This document shows positions 9,516 to 18,545 of a DNA stretch of 52,939 nt, one piece after another. How positions within the stretch are numbered: the stretch's first letter is position 1; each line of letters begins with the position of its first letter. The notes under the pieces are model-generated. The model made no database searches and was not told the DNA's origin. It was given only the letters and a program-made list of their open reading frames with translations. This DNA comes from Longibacter salinarum. GTDB lineage: Bacteria; Bacteroidota; Rhodothermia; Rhodothermales; Salinibacteraceae. A program made the position numbers and the translations under genes. The DNA is taken from assembly GCF_002554795.1 (NCBI RefSeq), contig NZ_PDEQ01000008.1:135001-187939 (forward strand), in the 5' to 3' direction.

Positions 9516-9710
9516 CAGAACCTGTTTGGCGGACAGCCTTCGTCCATCCAACGGTACGGACCTCCCGACGGTCGGTCCTCGCGAGGCTTTCACCACCAGG
9601 CTCGGGTGATCTCGCGCACTGTGTTTACTGCGTCATTGCGAGAGGATCGAATGATAGACATGAATGGGTACGCTAAAGATTTCAAAGTGCATCCGCCAAA
9701 CAGGTTGTCA
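9516..9710 (+). repeat. Dispersed inverted-end element, copy A
   Basis: About 195 bp bounded by AACCTGTTTGGCGGA (9519-9533) and its exact reverse complement (9692-9706). The inner part shares with copies B and C the block GGACAGCCTT...GGACCTCCCGA.GGTCGGTCC near its left end and CATCCGCCAAACAGGTT at its right end. The middle is divergent and without an open frame. The last three bases, TCA, are also the stop codon of the RND exporter on the minus strand, so the element abuts or truncates that gene. No clear target-site duplication is seen. Confidence 0.75.
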
Positions 9711-12344
9711 GTCTTCCGTTCGGGCCGTTGGGACCGTTGCCGCCGAGTCTGTCGCCGACGCACGATCTCCGCCATTCTCGTCGTCCGTGCTCTGGCGATA
9801 CCACTGGCCCATTCTATCTTCGAACCATTGCAGTAATGCAGGAAGGAAGACGACCGCCGATAGAAGGGTCGTACCAATTCCCACAACGGCGAGCGACCCA
9901 ATCGAATTGAGCCCAGGATGAAAGCTGAGTAGCAGTCCACCGAATCCCATCATGGTTGTAAGTGAACCGATAGTCACGTGCTCGCCCGTTGAGCGAAGCA
10001 CCTGAAAAATCGAGCCCCAGCCCTCCTCGCGATAGCGGTGCACCAGGTGGACGCCTGCGTCATTGCCAATTCCAAGAACCGCCGGCAGGACGATCATATT
10101 GTAGAAGTTGAGTTGCAGGCCGAAGATTTCCATGAGCAGCAGCATCCACAGAATTCCCACGACGAGCGGGACGAGCGCGAGGGCGGCCCAGCGCACGCTG
10201 CGGAAGTTCAGATACATGAGAAGTGCGACAATCAGGAAGGTGCCGAGGACCATCCAGGGCGCCTCGCTTCGCATAATCCGCAGCATATCTGCCGCTACCA
10301 GGGAGGTCGATGCAGCGTGGTAGACCTCGCCCTCATTTGTTCGAATTGTGCCCACATCCTCGAGGAAGGCAATCGATTTACGCCCGTCCGACAGACCGAC
10401 CGACGGGTAAATGATAACAAATGTGCCGATTTCCCCCGACTTGGTCGTAAACTGCTTGCGCAGGAAGTCGGGCAGTTCGATCAGTTCGATTGCGTCCCTC
10501 GTCTGCGCGGCGCGGCGGAGCTTATCGATGGCTTCGCCTTCCTGCCCTTTCAGGTACTTGTTGTTCTCCAGCAGGTCACGGATGTTCGCGATGCGCTGGA
10601 GCTTCGCCTGACGAGCCGTGTCCGCGAGCGGGAAGCGCTCCTGCAGACTTTCGACGCTAAGAATGGTCGGCGAGGTTGTGTCGCGACGTGCCTTTTCACG
10701 AACGGCTTCCACGATCTCCGGCACGTCCTCCTGCGAGTCCGCAAGGATATACGCCGGGTTTCGCTTGGACGGACCGCTGGTCGTGTCCGGTGGCGAAATA
10801 CGACCGATCACCTCGGCTCGCTCTTCATATTGCGTATAGTCTGGCTCCAGCGCACCGAAGTCGTACTGAAATCCGACCTGAGGAATCATGATCACGGCCG
10901 CCACTACGGCCAGGACGCTGCCGACCACAATCGGGCGAGCGGCCGGGAAACGGCGATCCTCACGGGTCGAAGTGCGGTTATGCCGGGGTTCGCCGTCGCC
11001 GGATCTGGCCATCGCGACGTTGCTCCGGAGGTCAAGCAGATTCCCGCGCTCGAGTAGCCCCAGAAGCGCCGGCATCACGATCGTCATGGCGATGAGGGCG
11101 AAAATAACGCCCGTTCCGGCGATGGCACCAAACTCAGAGAATCCCTTGAAGTCGGCAGGCGTGAGCACGTACAGGGCGGACGCGGTGGTCAGTGCACCGA
11201 CGGTAATCGCCTGTCCGGTGGACACGAACGTCTCCTCCGCGGCGCTGGTGATGCTTCGACCTTCCGCGCGCTCCTCCGCGTAGCGCCCGTAAAAGTGGAT
11301 GCCAAAGTCGATCCCCAGGCCAAAGAGGACAAGGCCCAGCGTCGAGGTCATGAGCGTTAAGCGCTCGAACATCAGATAGGCAAACCCGCCGGTCCATGCC
11401 AGACTCATCAACAGCGGCAGACCGATCACAAGCGCCATGATGGGCGTACGAAAAAGCTCCTGCAGCATGACGCGAGGACGGAATCCCCCGCCCCCGGTAC
11501 GCGCCATGTTCGCTTTGTAGAAAAAGTATCCAACGACAAGCAGGATTACGGCAAGGACGCCCGTCCCGAAGGATCCAGCCACATCATTCTGAATCGTCTT
11601 CACTTCGACCAGGCGGCGGTACAGACGCCCGGCGAGCGTCACCTCCATCTCCGCATTGTACGCGTCTGGCTCCATCTGGTCGACAAGTCCACGGAGATCG
11701 CTATAGAGTTGCTCGATGAAAGCAATGTCCGTGTTCGTGCCGCCCGGGTAAAAGCGCAGAACGAGGGTTGTGGAGTCCGGCGACACAGGGTACCGCTTCC
11801 CGACGAGATCATCGTACATTGCTTCGAGCTCTCGCCCCGATGCCTCTCCATCCTCTTCTTCCTCGTCGTCGAGATCGAAGTAGAACGGGTTCGCCTCGAG
11901 TTTCGCCTGCTCGATTTGTTCATCGAGATAATTCTCGACCTGCCTCAACTCTTGATCTGACGCAAAGTAGAGTGCGTTATCCTTCAGGTACTCCACGTCC
12001 CGCTTGTATTCCACACGCGTGAGATACGACTCGCCATCCGGCCCTTTCAGGTCGAGCGCTTTCGGAATCAGCGCCTCGGCGAACTCCTTATTCGCTTCGA
12101 ACGACGGGCTCGTAATGCCCACGGCGACGTCACTTTCGCCCCCGACGGTCTCTTTCAGCTCGTTCAGCGCCTGCACCGACGGACGATCTTCGGGGATGAG
12201 GTTCGCAAGGTCTGAATCGATGCTGAGGTTCCGCGCGAGCATGCCCCCCGCCGCCGTAAGCAGAGCAGCGGCCAGGAGGACCCAGCCAGCATTGCGAACG
12301 ACGCCGCGTATGAAGGGACGAAGCGATTCGAAAAGGCGATGCAT
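9708..12344 (-). CDS. RND-superfamily exporter of the MMPL/HAE3 type
   Basis: 878 residues with the RND layout in duplicate: a membrane helix at about 15-37, a large periplasmic loop (40-240), five helices (about 255-440), then a second helix (about 475), loop and five helices to about 850. The key motifs are GLGIDFGIHFYGRYAEE in the first half and GIGNDAGVHLVHRYREEG in the second, at the helix-4 position where proton-relay acidic residues sit. The first half resembles a sterol-sensing-type bundle. HAE3/MMPL proteins move lipids or hydrophobic compounds such as hopanoids out of the inner membrane; the cargo here is unknown. The C-terminal 40 residues are polar and end in RTED, where the stop codon lies in repeat copy A. 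DUF3047 protein gene lies upstream. Confidence 0.9.
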   Translation of the reverse strand: MHRLFESLRPFIRGVVRNAGWVLLAAALLTAAGGMLARNLSIDSDLANLIPEDRPSVQALNELKETVGGESDVAVGITSPSFEANKEFAEALIPKALDLKGPDGESYLTRVEYKRDVEYLKDNALYFASDQELRQVENYLDEQIEQAKLEANPFYFDLDDEEEEDGEASGRELEAMYDDLVGKRYPVSPDSTTLVLRFYPGGTNTDIAFIEQLYSDLRGLVDQMEPDAYNAEMEVTLAGRLYRRLVEVKTIQNDVAGSFGTGVLAVILLVVGYFFYKANMARTGGGGFRPRVMLQELFRTPIMALVIGLPLLMSLAWTGGFAYLMFERLTLMTSTLGLVLFGLGIDFGIHFYGRYAEERAEGRSITSAAEETFVSTGQAITVGALTTASALYVLTPADFKGFSEFGAIAGTGVIFALIAMTIVMPALLGLLERGNLLDLRSNVAMARSGDGEPRHNRTSTREDRRFPAARPIVVGSVLAVVAAVIMIPQVGFQYDFGALEPDYTQYEERAEVIGRISPPDTTSGPSKRNPAYILADSQEDVPEIVEAVREKARRDTTSPTILSVESLQERFPLADTARQAKLQRIANIRDLLENNKYLKGQEGEAIDKLRRAAQTRDAIELIELPDFLRKQFTTKSGEIGTFVIIYPSVGLSDGRKSIAFLEDVGTIRTNEGEVYHAASTSLVAADMLRIMRSEAPWMVLGTFLIVALLMYLNFRSVRWAALALVPLVVGILWMLLLMEIFGLQLNFYNMIVLPAVLGIGNDAGVHLVHRYREEGWGSIFQVLRSTGEHVTIGSLTTMMGFGGLLLSFHPGLNSIGSLAVVGIGTTLLSAVVFLPALLQWFEDRMGQWYRQSTDDENGGDRASATDSAATVPTARTED

Positions 12345-12473
12345 GAAAGCCGAGGTTGGGTGAGATCAGAACAAATACCCGACTGAATTCGAAAGCCGGG
12401 CGACAGAAGGGTGTGCGTCGGATCAGCGGTCGTGCAGGCCACAGCTGGCTGGACGACGCCTGGATGTCATCTG

Positions 12474-13253
12474 TTATTTGCGCTCGAACGGTGGCAGAAG
12501 ACGAATATCGTCGAAGTGAACTTCAGCCGTGTCATCGGTGGTGTCGGAATCGCTCCAGAACGTGATCGAAAGCGGTCGGTTGGGCGGGTCCTCGCCGAAG
12601 ACCTGACGGTAATCGCTGGGGATGTCTCGCATGACCTCTTTCCACTCGCCCATGCGAGGTTCTCTTGCCGAATCCACAACGATCACTTTGAGCGGTCCGA
12701 AAGATACGACCGAGCCCACGGGAAGCGACGAGCTATAGGTGTATTTGATGCTCTTCGGGCGTCCGAGCCAGTCGGACCCAAACGTCACGTAGAGAGCGCC
12801 TCCTGTATCATTCTCTCCCCGCTCGCTTGCGCCATCCGGAAGTTTCACGGCTCGCCATCGCCATGCGATCCGTGAATGGGTTTTCAGATTCCAGTCAAAT
12901 TCCTTACCGTTGCGCTGCGTGTAGCGGAGCGCTTCGCCTTTGGTCGAGACGCGGAGGTATCGATTCCCAGACTGTTTTTTTACTTCGACCGTCTCGCCGG
13001 GATCGCTCGCCTGATCATATGAAATGACACTCTTATCACGCTTCACAAAAACCCACTGCTCCGGAAAACTTCCGGGTTTATACGACTCGAAATCATCTAC
13101 AATGATCGGAGACGGTGCAGCCTGTTGCTCTGCCGCGTCACTCAACGGCTGAGCCTCGACGGCAGACGGAGCGGCTGATGCACTCAGCAGCACGCCGATC
13201 AAAACGGAAACAAGGAGAACGAGGGGCGGGCTCTCCAAGACCGGCGCTTTCAT
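12474..13253 (-). CDS. Exported DUF3047-type protein
   Basis: 259 residues from ATG 13253 (ATG 13271 adds six residues; 13412 is too early). The N-terminus is a signal peptide (LVLLVSVLIGVLLSASAAPSAVEA, cleavage near residue 35, shown as two runs around the hydrophobic core LVSVLIGVLLSASA). The mature part starts IVDDFESYKPGSFPEQW and has the DUF3047 features SRIAWRWRAVKLPDGA, a GALYVTFG strand, a SIKYTYSSSLPVG strand and a C-terminal FDDIRLLP. The fold looks like a carbohydrate-binding jelly roll, and the function of DUF3047 is not known. It lies 129 bases upstream of the RND exporter on the same strand, so a periplasmic role alongside it is reasonable inference. Confidence 0.8.
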   Translation of the reverse strand: MKAPVLESPPLVLLVSVLIGVLLSASAAPSAVEAQPLSDAAEQQAAPSPIIVDDFESYKPGSFPEQWVFVKRDKSVISYDQASDPGETVEVKKQSGNRYLRVSTKGEALRYTQRNGKEFDWNLKTHSRIAWRWRAVKLPDGASERGENDTGGALYVTFGSDWLGRPKSIKYTYSSSLPVGSVVSFGPLKVIVVDSAREPRMGEWKEVMRDIPSDYRQVFGEDPPNRPLSITFWSDSDTTDDTAEVHFDDIRLLPPFERK

Positions 13254-13766
13254 CAGAGCGGTACGCTCCATAGTAAGACATGCTTTTGTTCGAAGAACGG
13301 GATGACATAGCCGCTCGCCAAGTCGAAGAGGTAACGAGTCCACCTTCGCACGAGCAATGATTAAACGGCGGACACGCTGCAATTCGTGCTCGGGTCCACC
13401 CACCGCATACACGATTTCAGTATCGGCGGTGTTTAACTGTGAGCACGGGGGCTAGTTTGACGTTTATACCTCTAACGTTCGCAATATCACCTGTTTGAAC
13501 TGAAGCACACAGTTACGTTACAGCAGAACCGAAAGGGAAATTCCTCAAGATATAATTGCTTGCTCAGCACCAACCACAAGGAGGTTCAAGACACGCCAGT
13601 GCCTCCATTGGCGTACATCCCTAGCTGGTATTTCGGGATGTCGCATAAGGGAAAACCTCACGTCAAGCTGGGCCGAATCTATCACTTGGACTCGGGCCCA
13701 TTGCCCGTTCTTACGTGAAGAGCGGGCTTCCCCGTCAAGTAGCACTGTAGATTCCTTGCGCGACCT
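13254..13766. other. Divergent promoter region, no supported gene
   Basis: About 500 bases between the DUF3047 gene (minus) and the first small anchored-protein gene (plus). An open frame at 13545-13895 on the minus strand overlaps the latter gene and has no recognisable feature, so it is not called. The stretch 13430-13560 is AT-rich and is the likely promoter area. Confidence 0.45.
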
Positions 13767-14291
13767 ATGAATCCATATCAGAGATCTCTCCGCGTAGTTT
13801 CGGGCACTCTTCTCGTGTACGTCGTGCTCGTCGCCACTCATCTCGGCGAGTTTTGGCCATTTAGCATCTACCCCATGTTCTCGAAGGCGGGTCAACCCTG
13901 GTCGCGAGCTATCGTGCGTGAAGTCCCGACCGATGCCGATGCTACATCCTGGGAAAGCATTCGTCTCGACCAGCTGCCGGGGACAGCCTTTCCTATGCGC
14001 CCCAATGGCATCAACCAGAACGATATCGCCAATTATATCTCAAAAACGGACGTATGGACTCATTCCCGACTCCGGGGATTCCGGAGTCTTTTTGAAGGCA
14101 CGCATTCATTCGATCGACCGCTTCGTGCTTACAGAGTCCGAGGAACCCTGGCCGGTGACAGTGTCGATGTTTGGGTGACGCCCCTCTTAGAAATGACTGC
14201 GGACACCACGTTCTTTCATCCATCCGTAGCTGTCGATCTATCCCCCCGACATGAACAGTCCGCTTACGCCAGCACAACATCTGACCGCTAA
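13767..14291 (+). CDS. Small membrane-anchored protein, first member of an HTTM-linked pair
   Basis: 174 residues. One N-terminal membrane segment (about 9-29, VVSGTLLVYVVLVATHLGEF) is followed by FWPFSIYPMFS and then a soluble, probably periplasmic, domain of about 135 residues with no known family. The aromatic-proline stretch just after the membrane segment resembles that of the second small protein of this cluster (EPWPAVVLPGF at the same place), although the rest differs. The polytopic HTTM-like gene begins 71 bases later on the same strand. I infer that the two work together. The start is the ATG at 13767; the opposite-strand ORF over the first 129 bases is a shadow. Confidence 0.75.
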   Translation: MNPYQRSLRVVSGTLLVYVVLVATHLGEFWPFSIYPMFSKAGQPWSRAIVREVPTDADATSWESIRLDQLPGTAFPMRPNGINQNDIANYISKTDVWTHSRLRGFRSLFEGTHSFDRPLRAYRVRGTLAGDSVDVWVTPLLEMTADTTFFHPSVAVDLSPRHEQSAYASTTSDR

Positions 14292-14362
14292 CCCTCCTAC
14301 TTCTGGAGCAATCTTGACTTCGACGACTTCTTCCCGCTCTATCCCTGCCGCATGGTGCCGAC

Positions 14363-15280
14363 ATGAAGAATTACGCCCGGGCGCTGAGTCATCAGCTCTT
14401 TGACTTCAATCGTGATGAAACGTGGGGAGACATTTGGCATGTTCGGCTCGTGGAGCTGTTTCTGATTGGCTACACGCTTGACTTCTGTTGGACCTGGGGG
14501 ACATATATCCAGAACAACATCACGGAGGTGATGCTACCGCTCGGAATCGCCGAGCATATTGACATCTCTTTTCTCTTCGACCACAATCTGGCGATCTGGA
14601 ACGCCGCGATCATTACGGCACTGCTGTTTCTTGGACTTTTCCGCCTGTGGCGCCCTGCATACGGTGTAGCCATCGTACTCTTCCACCTGCAGTATGTGGC
14701 CCGCAACTGCCTAGGCGAGATCTCTCATGGTTCCAACCTCGTCGGGATGGGCATCCTCCTTCTGGGTCTCGCGCACCTGTTTTTCACCGGGGCGTCGGAA
14801 CGGCGACGGTTTTTAATGGGATCGCTGTATTTCTTCATTGGTCTCGGCTACACCTCGGCTGCAGTGTGCAAGCTCGTCGGGACCGGCATCTACTGGCCCG
14901 ATGGTCACCACCTCATCATGTGGATCACCGAGCGAAGAGTGGACGTGATTTCGAAGTTCGGTGCCTTCCAGCCAAACGGACTCCAGAATCTCGTACTTGG
15001 CGATTACCGCTGGGGCACCCTCATCCTGATGTTTGGTCTTCTCGCGGAGGCGAGCAGTTTCCTGATGTGGTTTAGAAAACTCCGCTACGTCATCGTGATG
15101 CTTGTCTTCTCCATGCACATTGGCATTGTGGTCTCGATGAACATCTTCTTCGAGGCATCGACGTACTTTTTGCTTCTACTTGGGCTGCCCTGGCACGACC
15201 TGCTTAACTTCGGTCGAGACAAACTTCTGGGTTTTCCGAAGCGAGAGGTATCAGAAACTGCTCCGCCGTTGATGGGATGA
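14363..15280 (+). CDS. Polytopic HTTM-like membrane protein, first copy
   Basis: 305 residues with about seven hydrophobic segments. Hallmarks of the HTTM (horizontally transferred transmembrane, vitamin K-dependent gamma-carboxylase-related) group are visible: a conserved lysine region YTSAAVCKLVGTGIYWPDG near residue 170, and MHIGIVVSMNIFFEAST near 252. The same HxG(I/V)xxxMNIxF motif occurs in the polytopic protein encoded 2 kb downstream. True VKD carboxylases carry a large lumenal domain that is absent here, so enzymatic carboxylation is not implied; the reaction is unknown. It sits between two small anchored-protein genes on the same strand. Confidence 0.72.
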   Translation: MKNYARALSHQLFDFNRDETWGDIWHVRLVELFLIGYTLDFCWTWGTYIQNNITEVMLPLGIAEHIDISFLFDHNLAIWNAAIITALLFLGLFRLWRPAYGVAIVLFHLQYVARNCLGEISHGSNLVGMGILLLGLAHLFFTGASERRRFLMGSLYFFIGLGYTSAAVCKLVGTGIYWPDGHHLIMWITERRVDVISKFGAFQPNGLQNLVLGDYRWGTLILMFGLLAEASSFLMWFRKLRYVIVMLVFSMHIGIVVSMNIFFEASTYFLLLLGLPWHDLLNFGRDKLLGFPKREVSETAPPLMG

Positions 15281-15412
15281 CCGTTGAGGATCTCTCATTT
15301 CGCACGCAATAAGCCGCACCTGCCTCAACCCAAAACCGATTCAAGACCGCATACAACTCGCTTTGCGGCATCGCTGAAATCGAATCTTTCTTTCCCTACT
15401 ATCTCATCGGTA

Positions 15413-15901
15413 ATGACCAAAGCGACCGTTCAGCGCCTGTTTGTCTTTATTTTTGCCGGCCTGATCGCTCAATACGCTCTTGTCGGCGTGATGGGTACTG
15501 TGGCGTCCGAACCCTGGCCTGCAGTTGTACTACCGGGATTCAAATCGGTATACGACAATGGAGACGAAATTGTATTTGACAAGGCCTCGATACAGATCCG
15601 CTTTACAGACGGAGGGTCGGCAATTGTTCGCACACCTATGTTTTTGCATGAAATGCCCGGATCGCACCACGCAGTTTTCCTATCGAGGCAATGCCGCCCG
15701 GCCTCCCTCAGTGGGACCCGTGCTACAGAGCGATGCATGCGCGATGAAAAGCGGCAGTGGTTCGTCTCCCGCGCACACACATTCTTTCCAGATCGATCGG
15801 TGAAGAGCGTGGACATCGTGTGGTCTCGCCTCCGATTTGCCCCTAACGTTGATGCAGAACCGCGTCATACACCGCTCGACACCCTCCGGCTCAGTGTCTA
15901 A
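15413..15901 (+). CDS. Small membrane-anchored protein, second HTTM-linked pair
   Basis: 162 residues from ATG 15413 (the in-frame start at 15284 lies four bases after the previous stop and adds 43 residues without a signal-like stretch). A membrane segment at about 9-30 (LFVFIFAGLIAQYALVGVMG) is followed by ASEPWPAVVLPGFKSVYDNG and a soluble region with three cysteines. No family is recognised. The (E/F)WP...P.F motif after the membrane segment recalls the protein at 13767-14291. The partner HTTM-like gene starts 62 bases later. Confidence 0.72.
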   Translation: MTKATVQRLFVFIFAGLIAQYALVGVMGTVASEPWPAVVLPGFKSVYDNGDEIVFDKASIQIRFTDGGSAIVRTPMFLHEMPGSHHAVFLSRQCRPASLSGTRATERCMRDEKRQWFVSRAHTFFPDRSVKSVDIVWSRLRFAPNVDAEPRHTPLDTLRLSV

Positions 15902-15963
15902 ACGCCCTCTGGTGCGTTTACTGCCTACTAACGAAGAATTGCTTTCTGGCTGAGGTTTGTCCA

Positions 15964-17109
15964 ATGGCTACGTTGTCGTCTTGGCTTCACCACCGAATAT
16001 TTGACTCGTGCAAGGTAACAGCAGAGGGACTCGCTCTTTATCGCATCGCGACCGCGAGTTTCGTCTTACTGTTCGGAGGGCCCGGATTCAATCCGTACTT
16101 CGCGTTTGCCCCGTTCGCAACGCTTCCGGATGCGATGTACTTGCCGCCCCCGGGTGTGATGCAACTGATTCCCGGATTCCCGTCGGAGGTGTTTTTTCAA
16201 ACACTTCAGGTGATGATCGTTCTCGCCTGGGTTGCCATTTTATTTGGATACCAAACGCGAATTGCGTCGCCGCTGGCGACTGTCTTAATGCTCGTGGGAT
16301 TTGGCTACACCTATTCGGTCGGCAAGATAAATCACAACATCCTGTTCGTGCTGCTTCCGTTTGTCATGGGCCTATCGAATTGGGGAGCTGCCTTTTCAAT
16401 CGATGCCAAGAGAGGTCGCGTTTCTCCTGATACCGCAAGCTGGCCCATTCCGCTCATGATGCTCCTAACCGGGTTTGCCATGTTTACTGCTGGCTTTCCT
16501 AAAATCTTGGGCGGGTGGCTCGACCCCGTGACGCAGGCAGCACGGAGCCGTTTCGTGAAGGGCTTTTTTGTAAACGACCGGACCGACCTTCTTGCAGAGG
16601 CGGCGTTGACGGTCCAGAGCGACGTTCTATGGGAGCTACTCGATATAGCCACTGTGGCCTTCGAGATCGGATTTCTCTTTGCTCTCGTAAGTCCGTGGTC
16701 AACACGGCTGTTTGCAGCCGGCGCAGTGTTCTTCCACACAGGCGTGATGCTCATCATGAACATTGCCTTCCCCACCAATTTCATCGTCTACGCGGCCGTT
16801 CTGCCATGGTCTCGCATGGCAGAACCCGTTCACACATGGGTGTCTAGGTTACGTCCTTTTAGTACAGCAAGGTACGTCTCTGCAGCGGGTATCGTCGCTA
16901 TTTTCTTCACAATCGTAGGTTCTCCTCTTCTCTGGCTCGACTTCGGCCTTGCGTCCGACCTTCAACCGGTCGACATCCTGGTTGTGGTCCTCGGTCTGCT
17001 TACAGTGCTGGCTCTTGTCATCCTGAAAATGTGGAACCGCAGTGTGAGACTCGGCCACGAATTATATCGCCCGCTTAAACCCAACGTCGAATCGTCGAGC
17101 CAGCAATAG
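15964..17109 (+). CDS. Polytopic HTTM-like membrane protein, second copy
   Basis: 381 residues with eight or nine hydrophobic segments. Near residue 115 it has SVGKINHNILFVLLPFVMG, near 163 MFTAGFPKILGGWLDP with a conserved lysine and GGW, and near 257 FFHTGVMLIMNIAFPTNF. These match the order of motifs in the protein at 14363-15280 (KLVGTGIYWPDG, then MHIGIVVSMNIFFEAST), so the two are distant homologues rather than chance neighbours. The long C-terminal part adds two more membrane helices and a basic tail. No reaction can be assigned; DoxX- or HTTM-type membrane proteins are the nearest known groups. It ends 293 bases before a glycosyltransferase gene. Confidence 0.72.
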   Translation: MATLSSWLHHRIFDSCKVTAEGLALYRIATASFVLLFGGPGFNPYFAFAPFATLPDAMYLPPPGVMQLIPGFPSEVFFQTLQVMIVLAWVAILFGYQTRIASPLATVLMLVGFGYTYSVGKINHNILFVLLPFVMGLSNWGAAFSIDAKRGRVSPDTASWPIPLMMLLTGFAMFTAGFPKILGGWLDPVTQAARSRFVKGFFVNDRTDLLAEAALTVQSDVLWELLDIATVAFEIGFLFALVSPWSTRLFAAGAVFFHTGVMLIMNIAFPTNFIVYAAVLPWSRMAEPVHTWVSRLRPFSTARYVSAAGIVAIFFTIVGSPLLWLDFGLASDLQPVDILVVVLGLLTVLALVILKMWNRSVRLGHELYRPLKPNVESSSQQ

Positions 17110-17402: not shown

Positions 17403-18545
17403 ATGCGACTCCTCTTTGTCACGCAGGATTTTCCTCCGGCTGTCGGCGGAATCCAAACGTACTCTTGGGAACTGGTTCGCCGGTGGTCAGATGTTGGAGC
17501 TGTTCACGTGATTGCCCCGAGTCACAAAGATGCTAGCGATGTCGATACTTCCCTTTCGGCACGAGTCACGCGCGTACCGACAGCTCCGGAAACGTTGCCC
17601 CTGCGTGGCATCCCGTCGATCATTCGAGTAGCCCGCTCATTTCAGCCGGATATTGCTTTTCACGGCCAGTGGCATACACTGGGAGCCTCACTGCTTGCAC
17701 AACGTCTTACGGGCTTCCCCCGACGAATCGTATGTGCTGCCCATGGGCGCGAACTTCTATTCAACCCACTGCACTCTATTCCACTCGTACGATCGACCTA
17801 TACCCTTCTGCGGCGGTCGCTGCTGCGGATACCGGATCTGTTCGTTCCTGTGAGTCGCTACACGGCGGACCTTCTCCATAGCGAAGGAGTGGACCCAGCA
17901 CGTACTCACGTTATGCCTAATGGCGTTGACCCAACACGCTTTCAGCCACTCACGCACTCGAACGTGCGGGCGCAGTTGGATATGGCCGACCGCCCCACAC
18001 TTTTGACGGTTGGACGACTCGTGCCGCGAAAAGGCCTCGACACTACGATCTGCGCCCTCCGTTCCGTTCTAAAAAGCGTTCCTGATGCGCAGTATCTCAT
18101 TGTTGGCTCAGGCCCAGACCAGGAACGACTTCAGCATCTCGTCTCCCATCACGACCTCACTGACTCTGTTCATTTCATCGGACGTGTGGCGTGGGACAGT
18201 CTTCCACAGTACTATAACGCAGCAGATGTCTTCGTCATGCCCTCGCGCGAAGACCCGCCGGATGTCGAAGGCTTCGGGCTCGTATTTCTTGAGGCGAATG
18301 CCTGCGGGACCCCCGTCGTGGGTGCCGCCGCGGGTGGGGTGCCTGATGCCATTATTGATGGAGTCACCGGCTACCTTGTGCCTCCCGCAGACCCGGATGC
18401 CCTAGCAGATGTACTCGTTGATCTGCTCAAGCATCCGGCTCGCGCACGAGAGATAGGACAAGTTGGACGCCTGCACACGGAAGGAGAAGCCAGTTGGGAT
18501 CACGTAGCCAACGCGATGTTGCACGAGATCCGGGCAACACTCTGA
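17403..18545 (+). CDS. Glycosyltransferase family 4 (GT-B fold)
   Basis: 380 residues from ATG 17403; the in-frame start at 17232 adds 57 unrelated residues and is rejected. The N-terminal domain opens with LFVTQDFPPAVGGIQTYSWEL, shown here as two parts (LFVTQDFPPAVGG and IQTYSWEL), the typical acceptor-domain glycine loop. The C-terminal domain has LLTVGRLVPRKGLDTTI (near 205), FIGRVAWDSLPQYYNAADVF (near 268) and the donor-binding EGFGLVFLEANACGTPVVG near 298, with the E-x7-E arrangement of retaining GT4 enzymes. It should transfer a sugar from a nucleotide donor to a cell-surface glycan or lipid. It opens a region with Wzi, flippase-like, methyltransferase and GT2 genes. Confidence 0.93.
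   Translation: MRLLFVTQDFPPAVGGIQTYSWELVRRWSDVGAVHVIAPSHKDASDVDTSLSARVTRVPTAPETLPLRGIPSIIRVARSFQPDIAFHGQWHTLGASLLAQRLTGFPRRIVCAAHGRELLFNPLHSIPLVRSTYTLLRRSLLRIPDLFVPVSRYTADLLHSEGVDPARTHVMPNGVDPTRFQPLTHSNVRAQLDMADRPTLLTVGRLVPRKGLDTTICALRSVLKSVPDAQYLIVGSGPDQERLQHLVSHHDLTDSVHFIGRVAWDSLPQYYNAADVFVMPSREDPPDVEGFGLVFLEANACGTPVVGAAAGGVPDAIIDGVTGYLVPPADPDALADVLVDLLKHPARAREIGQVGRLHTEGEASWDHVANAMLHEIRATL

Follow-up and report, generated by a model that had tools for sequence, protein, structure and literature searches.

Two pairs of a small membrane protein and an HTTM-related protein in Longibacter salinarum as a probable split form of a vitamin K carboxylase-like enzyme

Background

In the human vitamin K-dependent gamma-glutamyl carboxylase (GGCX), K218 in the fifth transmembrane (TM) helix is the base deprotonating vitamin K hydroquinone, H160 of TM4 lines the site and holds the Glu together with N159, the naphthoquinone pocket is lined by F286, F294, F299 and W223, and M401 and M402, in the linker between the transmembrane domain and the propeptide-binding domain, wall off the pocket (PMC12589487). 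This clotting-factor carboxylase has bacterial relatives. In Bacillus subtilis, sdpA-sdpB and the paralogous yitP-yitO are parts of operons making secreted toxins (PMC6818787), and linaridin clusters include an HTTM protein (e.g. CrdG) that is taken to act in peptide maturation, by a mechanism called unclear (PMC9927463). Here, we describe a locus of Longibacter salinarum, located in a stretch of 52,939 nucleotides of contig NZ_PDEQ01000008.1 (hereafter the window), in which four consecutive plus-strand open reading frames (ORFs) at 13767-17109 alternate between small single-TM and polytopic proteins, with the positions and lengths given in an earlier note on the same DNA. These are P1 (174 residues, 13767..14291), P2 (305 residues, 14363..15280), P3 (162 residues, 15413..15901) and P4 (381 residues, 15964..17109). 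We consider it probable that, in each of the pairs P1-P2 and P3-P4, two genes together encode one GGCX-like enzyme, with P2 and P4 as the putative catalytic subunits and the small proteins as their partner subunits.

Results

P2 and P4 belong to the HTTM/GGCX superfamily and are relatives of the human vitamin K-dependent carboxylase, in keeping with the HTTM relationship that the earlier note had suggested. In a six-frame search of the genome, P4 scored 28.1 bits against PF05090, above the gathering cut-off of 27.7, and the same model matched 8 of 17 P4 homologues (best 3.3e-12); hmmscan with the P4 protein alone left PF05090 unlisted, an effect of its filters. The P4 profile aligned with classical HTTM proteins of the same phylum (hhalign 96.8%, 2.5e-10), and a classical HTTM protein from the class aligned in turn with human GGCX in the PDB (3.7e-51), from the TM domain through the linker and C-domain. 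For P2, no family was matched by any of 47 members and the PF05090 cut-off was not reached, and we therefore term it an HTTM/GGCX-fold protein, not a PF05090 member. Its AlphaFold2 model (predicted local distance difference test, pLDDT, 93.9; predicted template modelling score, pTM, 0.88) matched 14 GGCX chains in VIA-align at Z 11.6-13.9 over 240-267 residues, the next protein following at Z 5.9, and the match spans GGCX residues 31-342, stopping before TM9. Pfam and NCBIfam library scans of the P1-P4 proteins gave nothing useful, and the P2 and P4 alignments, used as profiles against PDB sequences, found no match, so that the link between P2 and GGCX rests on structure and on the profile links via P4.

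Residues were mapped along the chain from GGCX through classical HTTM proteins and P4 to P2. By this route, K218 corresponds to Lys180 of P4 (16501..16503; 17/17 homologues) and to Lys170 of P2 (14870..14872; 47/47, by hhalign to P4 and classical HTTM proteins), and H160 to His124 of P4 (16333..16335, in GK-I-N-H; 17/17, with Asn123 as the N159 equivalent in 16/17) and to His122 of P2 (14726..14728; 46/47, by hhalign and helix order). The equivalent of W223 is Trp185 in P4 (16516..16518; 17/17), with the K-x4-W spacing of GGCX, and probably Trp178 in P2 (14894..14896; 47/47), where a three-residue insertion gives K-x7-W. F286 and the His that follows it in TM7 correspond to F257-H258 in P4 (17/17 each) and to M251-H252 in P2. 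The conserved Lys, His, K-x(4)-W and F-H are all present, P2 carrying K-x7-W and M-H as variants, and the Lys, the Trp, the second His and a Glu are invariant in all 47 P2 and all 17 P4 homologues. The model of P2 agrees with the mapping, placing H122 at the start of the fourth TM helix, K170 at the end of the fifth and H252 within the seventh. Both features that the earlier note had picked out as common to the polytopic pair were recovered, namely the lysine/GxW region (P2 K170..W178, P4 K180..W185) and the motif HxG(I/V)xxxMNIxF, which is exact in P2 at H252-F263 (15116..15151, HxGIxxxMNIxF, with H252, G254, I261 and F263 invariant) and in P4 at H258-F269 (16735..16770, HxGVxxxMNIxF).

The two pairs are related to each other at the level of families. 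Pairwise BLASTP between P2 and P4 and between P1 and P3 was not significant (E 0.12 and 0.32), and the P2 and P4 family profiles align across 258 columns with an hhalign E-value of 2.4e-6; the score is 52, where the reversed profile gives 22 and 30 column shuffles reach no more than 39. The direct profile match between P1 and P3 is weak (22.8 against a shuffle maximum of 17.9), and the small proteins have diverged more than P2 and P4. Each of them has one hydrophobic segment (17-residue hydropathy maxima of 2.06 and 2.20, at residue 10), which in P1 forms a TM helix at about residues 8-26 (13788..13844). Directly after the helix follows ExWPx4PxF, invariant in 45/45 P1 and 17/17 P3 homologues, which is the Trp-Pro/Pro-Phe stretch that had earlier been noticed as common to both. 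In P1 it reads E28-x-W30-P31-x4-P36-x-F38 (EFWPFSIYPMF, 13848..13880) and in P3 E33-P-W35-P36-x4-P41-x-F43 (EPWPAVVLPGF, 15509..15541); the same letters at five conserved residues in register arose in 43 of 20,000 permutations that preserved the conserved positions. The N-terminus of P1 is positive, and an N-in, C-periplasmic topology is therefore predicted. For P3, a longer frame of 205 residues begins with TTG at 15284, and ATG 15413 was taken as the start because the family shares this position.

The detachable nature of the small proteins is seen in two kinds of fused forms. In five of the 117 surveyed genomes of the window's class (G060, G027, G044, G086 and G034), single-chain HTTM-related proteins of 517-568 residues (L050-L054) were found, only through their similarity to P4; these carry an extra N-terminal stretch, and all five end with a TM helix, the motif WPF[AG][VL]YPTF or WPIAVYPTF, and a C-terminal domain. 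L053, the sole one of them scanned, had no Pfam match. Their HTTM part aligns with P4 (99.5%, 3e-23) and P2 (94.6%, 7e-8), and their tail with P1 (77.9%, 1.8e-5, over the TM helix and motif only) and P3 (55%, 1.2e-4, over 137 columns), all of these profile scores being above reversed and shuffled controls. Additionally, in five genomes of one Rhodothermus-like genus, a single frame of 520-521 residues joins P1 to the end of P4, and this fusion gene overlaps P3 upstream and P2 downstream by 4 nucleotides each. P3 also aligns modestly, in direct profile comparison, with the TM+YPG...FSW module of classical HTTM proteins, scoring 25.9 where shuffles reach at most 20.3. Because it occurs fused to HTTM proteins, the small protein is most readily understood as a C-terminal module of HTTM enzymes that can be detached, and is more likely a subunit than a substrate. 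The suggestion of a "substrate or partner" in the earlier note is supported for the partner and not for the substrate, as C-terminal fusion in five single-chain and five P4-P1 proteins suits a subunit better.

In a structural model of the P4-P1 fusion, the periplasmic alpha/beta domain of P1 is good and the top match is again GGCX (Foldseek E 5.3e-4; Z 11.1-13.3, with low-confidence stretches included). Residue 397 of the model, beside W395-P396 of P1, falls on GGCX 400-402 in several entries, within the W399-M402 linker. The small module may thus sit at the TM9/linker position, as aligned in a low-confidence stretch of the model.

Across genomes, the small genes are linked to their polytopic partners, and the neighbour analysis that had been put forward as a test of linkage supports the earlier idea of a repeated two-gene functional unit with a diversified small part. 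Homologues of P1 and P2 occur in the same 52 of the 117 genomes, adjacent and in the order P1-P2 (one extra weak P1 match, in G059, was left out of this count), with overlapping stop and start codons in 32 and a gap of at most 30 nucleotides in 44 of the 52 loci. When 84,980 species genomes were searched independently with P1 only, 80 loci were kept, and in 80/80 of them P2 lies directly downstream of P1. The holders in this wide search include Salinibacter, Salinivenus, Longimonas, Fodinibius, Gracilimonas, Rhodohalobacter and many Balneolaceae metagenome-assembled genomes (MAGs), as well as one record each with the label Reichenbachiella, Polyangia or KSB1. In the Polyangia MAG, P1-P2-P1-P2 stand in tandem (L234:4654-7543), a separate instance, outside the home class, of the module being repeated, and the P1-P2 pair on the MAG labelled candidate division KSB1 (L220) may reflect transfer or mis-binning.

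Homologues of P4, counted with the single-chain type excluded, are present in 19 genomes of the class, and P3 is directly upstream in 17 of these. The remaining two have another small protein upstream, in which SEPYPALKMP or AEPYPALKMP replaces SEPWP, such that small TM proteins bearing E-P-[WY]-P sit upstream of P4. All of the P4 genomes except one (18/19) also hold P1-P2, a co-occurrence with Fisher values of 8e-7 over genomes and 0.02 over genera. P3-P4, an accessory pair, almost never occurs without P1-P2, which makes it probable that the two work in a single pathway or complex. The order is P1-P2-P3-P4 here, P3-P4-P1-P2 in several genera, and convergent or unlinked in others. As order, orientation and linkage vary, the modules are regarded as old, and the two are ancient paralogous pairs travelling together. 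A recent tandem duplication was rejected, with P2 and P4 at about 18% identity in the profile alignment and a variable order.

Degraded copies were also encountered. A genome of the Rhodothermus-like genus (G028) keeps an 82-residue P3 remnant at the syntenic place (L156:9309-9554), P1, P2 and P4 having been lost together. In G115, a P4-like gene is broken into two overlapping frames of 188 and 249 residues (L153:9169-10348), by frameshift or sequencing error, and a second P1 copy with in-frame stops lies at G081:C35:87240-87491.

Outside the unit, a DUF3047 gene lies divergently on the minus strand at 12474..13412 and a GT4 glycosyltransferase gene on the plus strand at 17403..18545. DUF3047 is the commonest upstream neighbour of P1 (15/52), and GT4 and GT2 are the commonest direct downstream neighbours of P2 elsewhere (11/52 each). 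Within about 9 kb of the 52 P1-P2 loci, MMPL/HpnN-like (40), DUF3047 (35), flippase-like (34) and GT4 (33) genes recur, and MlaC genes are found there too. These neighbours point weakly to the cell envelope, as synteny is common to one class. In the window, an HpnN/BstA-like MMPL transporter and the DUF3047 gene (9708-13412) are divergent from the pair, and several families of the class conserve this arrangement. A promoter and terminator scan returned two promoter-like sites, about the number that chance would give.

Discussion

If each pair is indeed a split GGCX-like enzyme, P2 and P4 would provide the catalytic transmembrane domain, with a quinol pocket holding the Lys base (K170/K180) and the His (H122/H124). 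The C-terminal elements of GGCX and classical HTTM proteins would come in trans from P1 and P3, namely the last TM helix, a membrane-embedded linker beside the quinone pocket, in which ExWPx4PxF would replace the Y-S-W-D-M-M of GGCX, and a small periplasmic domain as the probable receiver of the substrate. By analogy with GGCX, the Lys would deprotonate reduced menaquinone, O2 would turn the deprotonated menaquinone into a strong base, and this base would take a proton from a periplasmic substrate, with carboxylation, epimerisation or another C-H modification as the possible outcome. Rhodothermus marinus is strictly aerobic and has menaquinones as its sole respiratory quinones (PMC3035238), which would make the two co-substrates of the GGCX reaction available in that organism. 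A more detailed version, in which the locus encodes a menaquinol-dependent strong-base enzyme with its TM9/linker/substrate-domain gate as a detachable subunit, and in which the two non-equivalent pairs join in one periplasmic protein-modifying complex, is offered as a doubtful proposal.

Several observations weigh against a split GGCX-like enzyme. Foldseek with the P2 model returned nothing at E<=0.001, and the Z values from VIA-align are to be read knowing that unrelated helical bundles can reach Z of about 14; a chance match of helical bundles is still disfavoured for P2 because of the gap in Z, the exclusiveness of GGCX among the matches and the agreement of residues. The N159 position is occupied by Ser or Pro in P2 instead of Asn. 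Profile scores of 12.0 for P1 and 13.8 for the fused module against the C-terminal part of classical HTTM proteins lie below shuffles, and the small partner is encoded upstream as a separate gene but stands C-terminally in the single-chain forms. The fusion model is poor in the middle of P4 and at the joint (residues 171-221 and 387-406), the middle because the underlying alignment (A12) had five rows only for P4 residues 160-390; the other MAFFT alignments of P1 and P4 (A5, A7, A8, A10 and A11) either set the WP..MF of P1 on the WP..MF of P4 or scattered the rows. Finally, the activity, quinone binding and complex formation ascribed to any member are predictions, which applies to the P1-P2 and P3-P4 complexes and to the quinol chemistry of P2 and P4 alike.

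The closest alternative keeps the enzyme and changes the role of the small proteins, with P1 and P3 as dedicated substrates modified by P2 and P4 in the way that propeptide-bearing proteins are modified by GGCX. Strict P1-P2 pairing, the greater divergence of the small proteins and the fact that secreted proteins are GGCX targets would all fit, but HTTM proteins carry the module as a fusion in two independent ways, its conservation is highest in the membrane-exit motif and not in a modifiable region, and the model shows its periplasmic part folded as an alpha/beta domain, which leaves this alternative unlikely. The pairs might instead mature a secreted peptide, in the manner of SdpA and SdpB, on which production of the SDP peptide from SdpC depends. 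The layout is alike, with a small gene followed by an HTTM-related gene, and the paralogue yitPOM likewise serves toxin production (PMC6818787). In a related genome holding no P1-P2 (G008, L157:1405-2934), an SdpB-like HTTM protein (TIGR04033 at 1.1e-8, below the cut-off) is preceded by a 183-residue single-TM protein with GDWSFGFFS, as a third type of pair. To this extent, the claim in the earlier note that no described pathway has such a layout was too strong; it holds in so far as P1-P4 match neither family model. SdpB (TIGR04033, cut-off 178.4 bits) matched neither P2 and P4 nor the 17 P4 homologues, and SdpA (TIGR04034) matched neither P1 and P3 nor four relatives at E<=5. Further, among ORFs of at least 80 residues at the 52 loci, no SdpC-like precursor recurs next to the pairs, the neighbours being MMPL/HpnN-like, GT4 and DUF3047 genes, and the wide spread within the class is unlike that of a bacteriocin, so that we regard peptide maturation as quite improbable.

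Two further explanations dispense with the GGCX chemistry altogether. A polytopic protein and a small anchored one also make up DoxD/DoxA, and the pairs could accordingly be a thiosulfate:quinone oxidoreductase of this type, with a polytopic quinone subunit, a small anchored subunit and no strong-base chemistry. Membership was rejected, as the Pfam models of DoxD and DoxA found nothing and DoxX_3 reached only 0.21 in 2 of the 47 P2 members, and with the fold match being to GGCX, including its Lys and His, this identity is very improbable. The HTTM fold could also be merely inherited by a non-catalytic protein that serves as a membrane scaffold, or as an accessory to the transport of envelope lipids or polysaccharides, as might be suggested by the HpnN-like MMPL transporter near 40 of 52 loci and by genes for GT4, flippase-like proteins and MlaC at distances up to about 9 kb; the equivalents of the GGCX-site Lys, His and Trp are invariant in both pairs and would be needless in a scaffold, which makes such a role equally hard to credit.

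Read as a split GGCX-like enzyme, the locus represents a natural dissection of a carboxylase relative. Here, a small protein of its own would form the gate of the vitamin K pocket, always next to the catalytic partner and in cultured aerobic hosts such as Salinibacter relatives and probably Rhodothermus, and subunit swaps, gating and substrate capture thereby become directly testable. It also suggests a general rule, that of a small TM protein working with an HTTM protein, which might cover SdpA-SdpB as well. In the library of papers searched, we found none on split HTTM pairs, nor on SdpB and vitamin K.

Comparison with known systems

Among proteins described outside the HTTM/GGCX pairs of this class, DUF5819 is the small partner of HTTM genes in actinobacteria; P1 and P3 are not members, with no Pfam match at E<=1. 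Linaridin HTTM proteins differ by their context in a peptide biosynthetic cluster. SdpA-SdpB and YitP-YitO of B. subtilis (TIGR04034, TIGR04033) resemble the pairs in having the small gene directly upstream of the HTTM-related gene, and in a B. subtilis control genome PF05090 and TIGR04033 both match, whereas P1-P4 have no match to these families and no linked toxin precursor gene recurs among the neighbouring ORFs of at least 80 residues.

With human GGCX (9bvo, 9bur, 9wf3), the pairs share the fold of the TM domain, the Lys218 and His160 equivalents and the F-H motif in TM7, and in the fusion model TM9 and the linker coincide with the TM helix and WP of P1. The human enzyme carries TM9, the linker and the lumenal propeptide-binding domain in the same chain, unlike P2, the match of which ends at GGCX 342; the enzymes described here are split over two genes and are without the large propeptide-binding lumenal domain, P2 is without an Asn159 equivalent, and carboxylation would apply to them only by analogy. 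Classical bacterial HTTM proteins (PF05090, about 430-490 residues, AKLNxDW) are homologous to P4 over the HTTM domain and have K-x4-W, N-H and F-H in common with it, but are single chains carrying a C-terminal YPGxxxWTEEGYRFSWR module. The single-chain proteins L050-L054 combine a P4-like HTTM domain with a following P1/P3-like TM helix and WPFxVYPTF module, and differ from the pairs in being one polypeptide with an extra N-terminal stretch.

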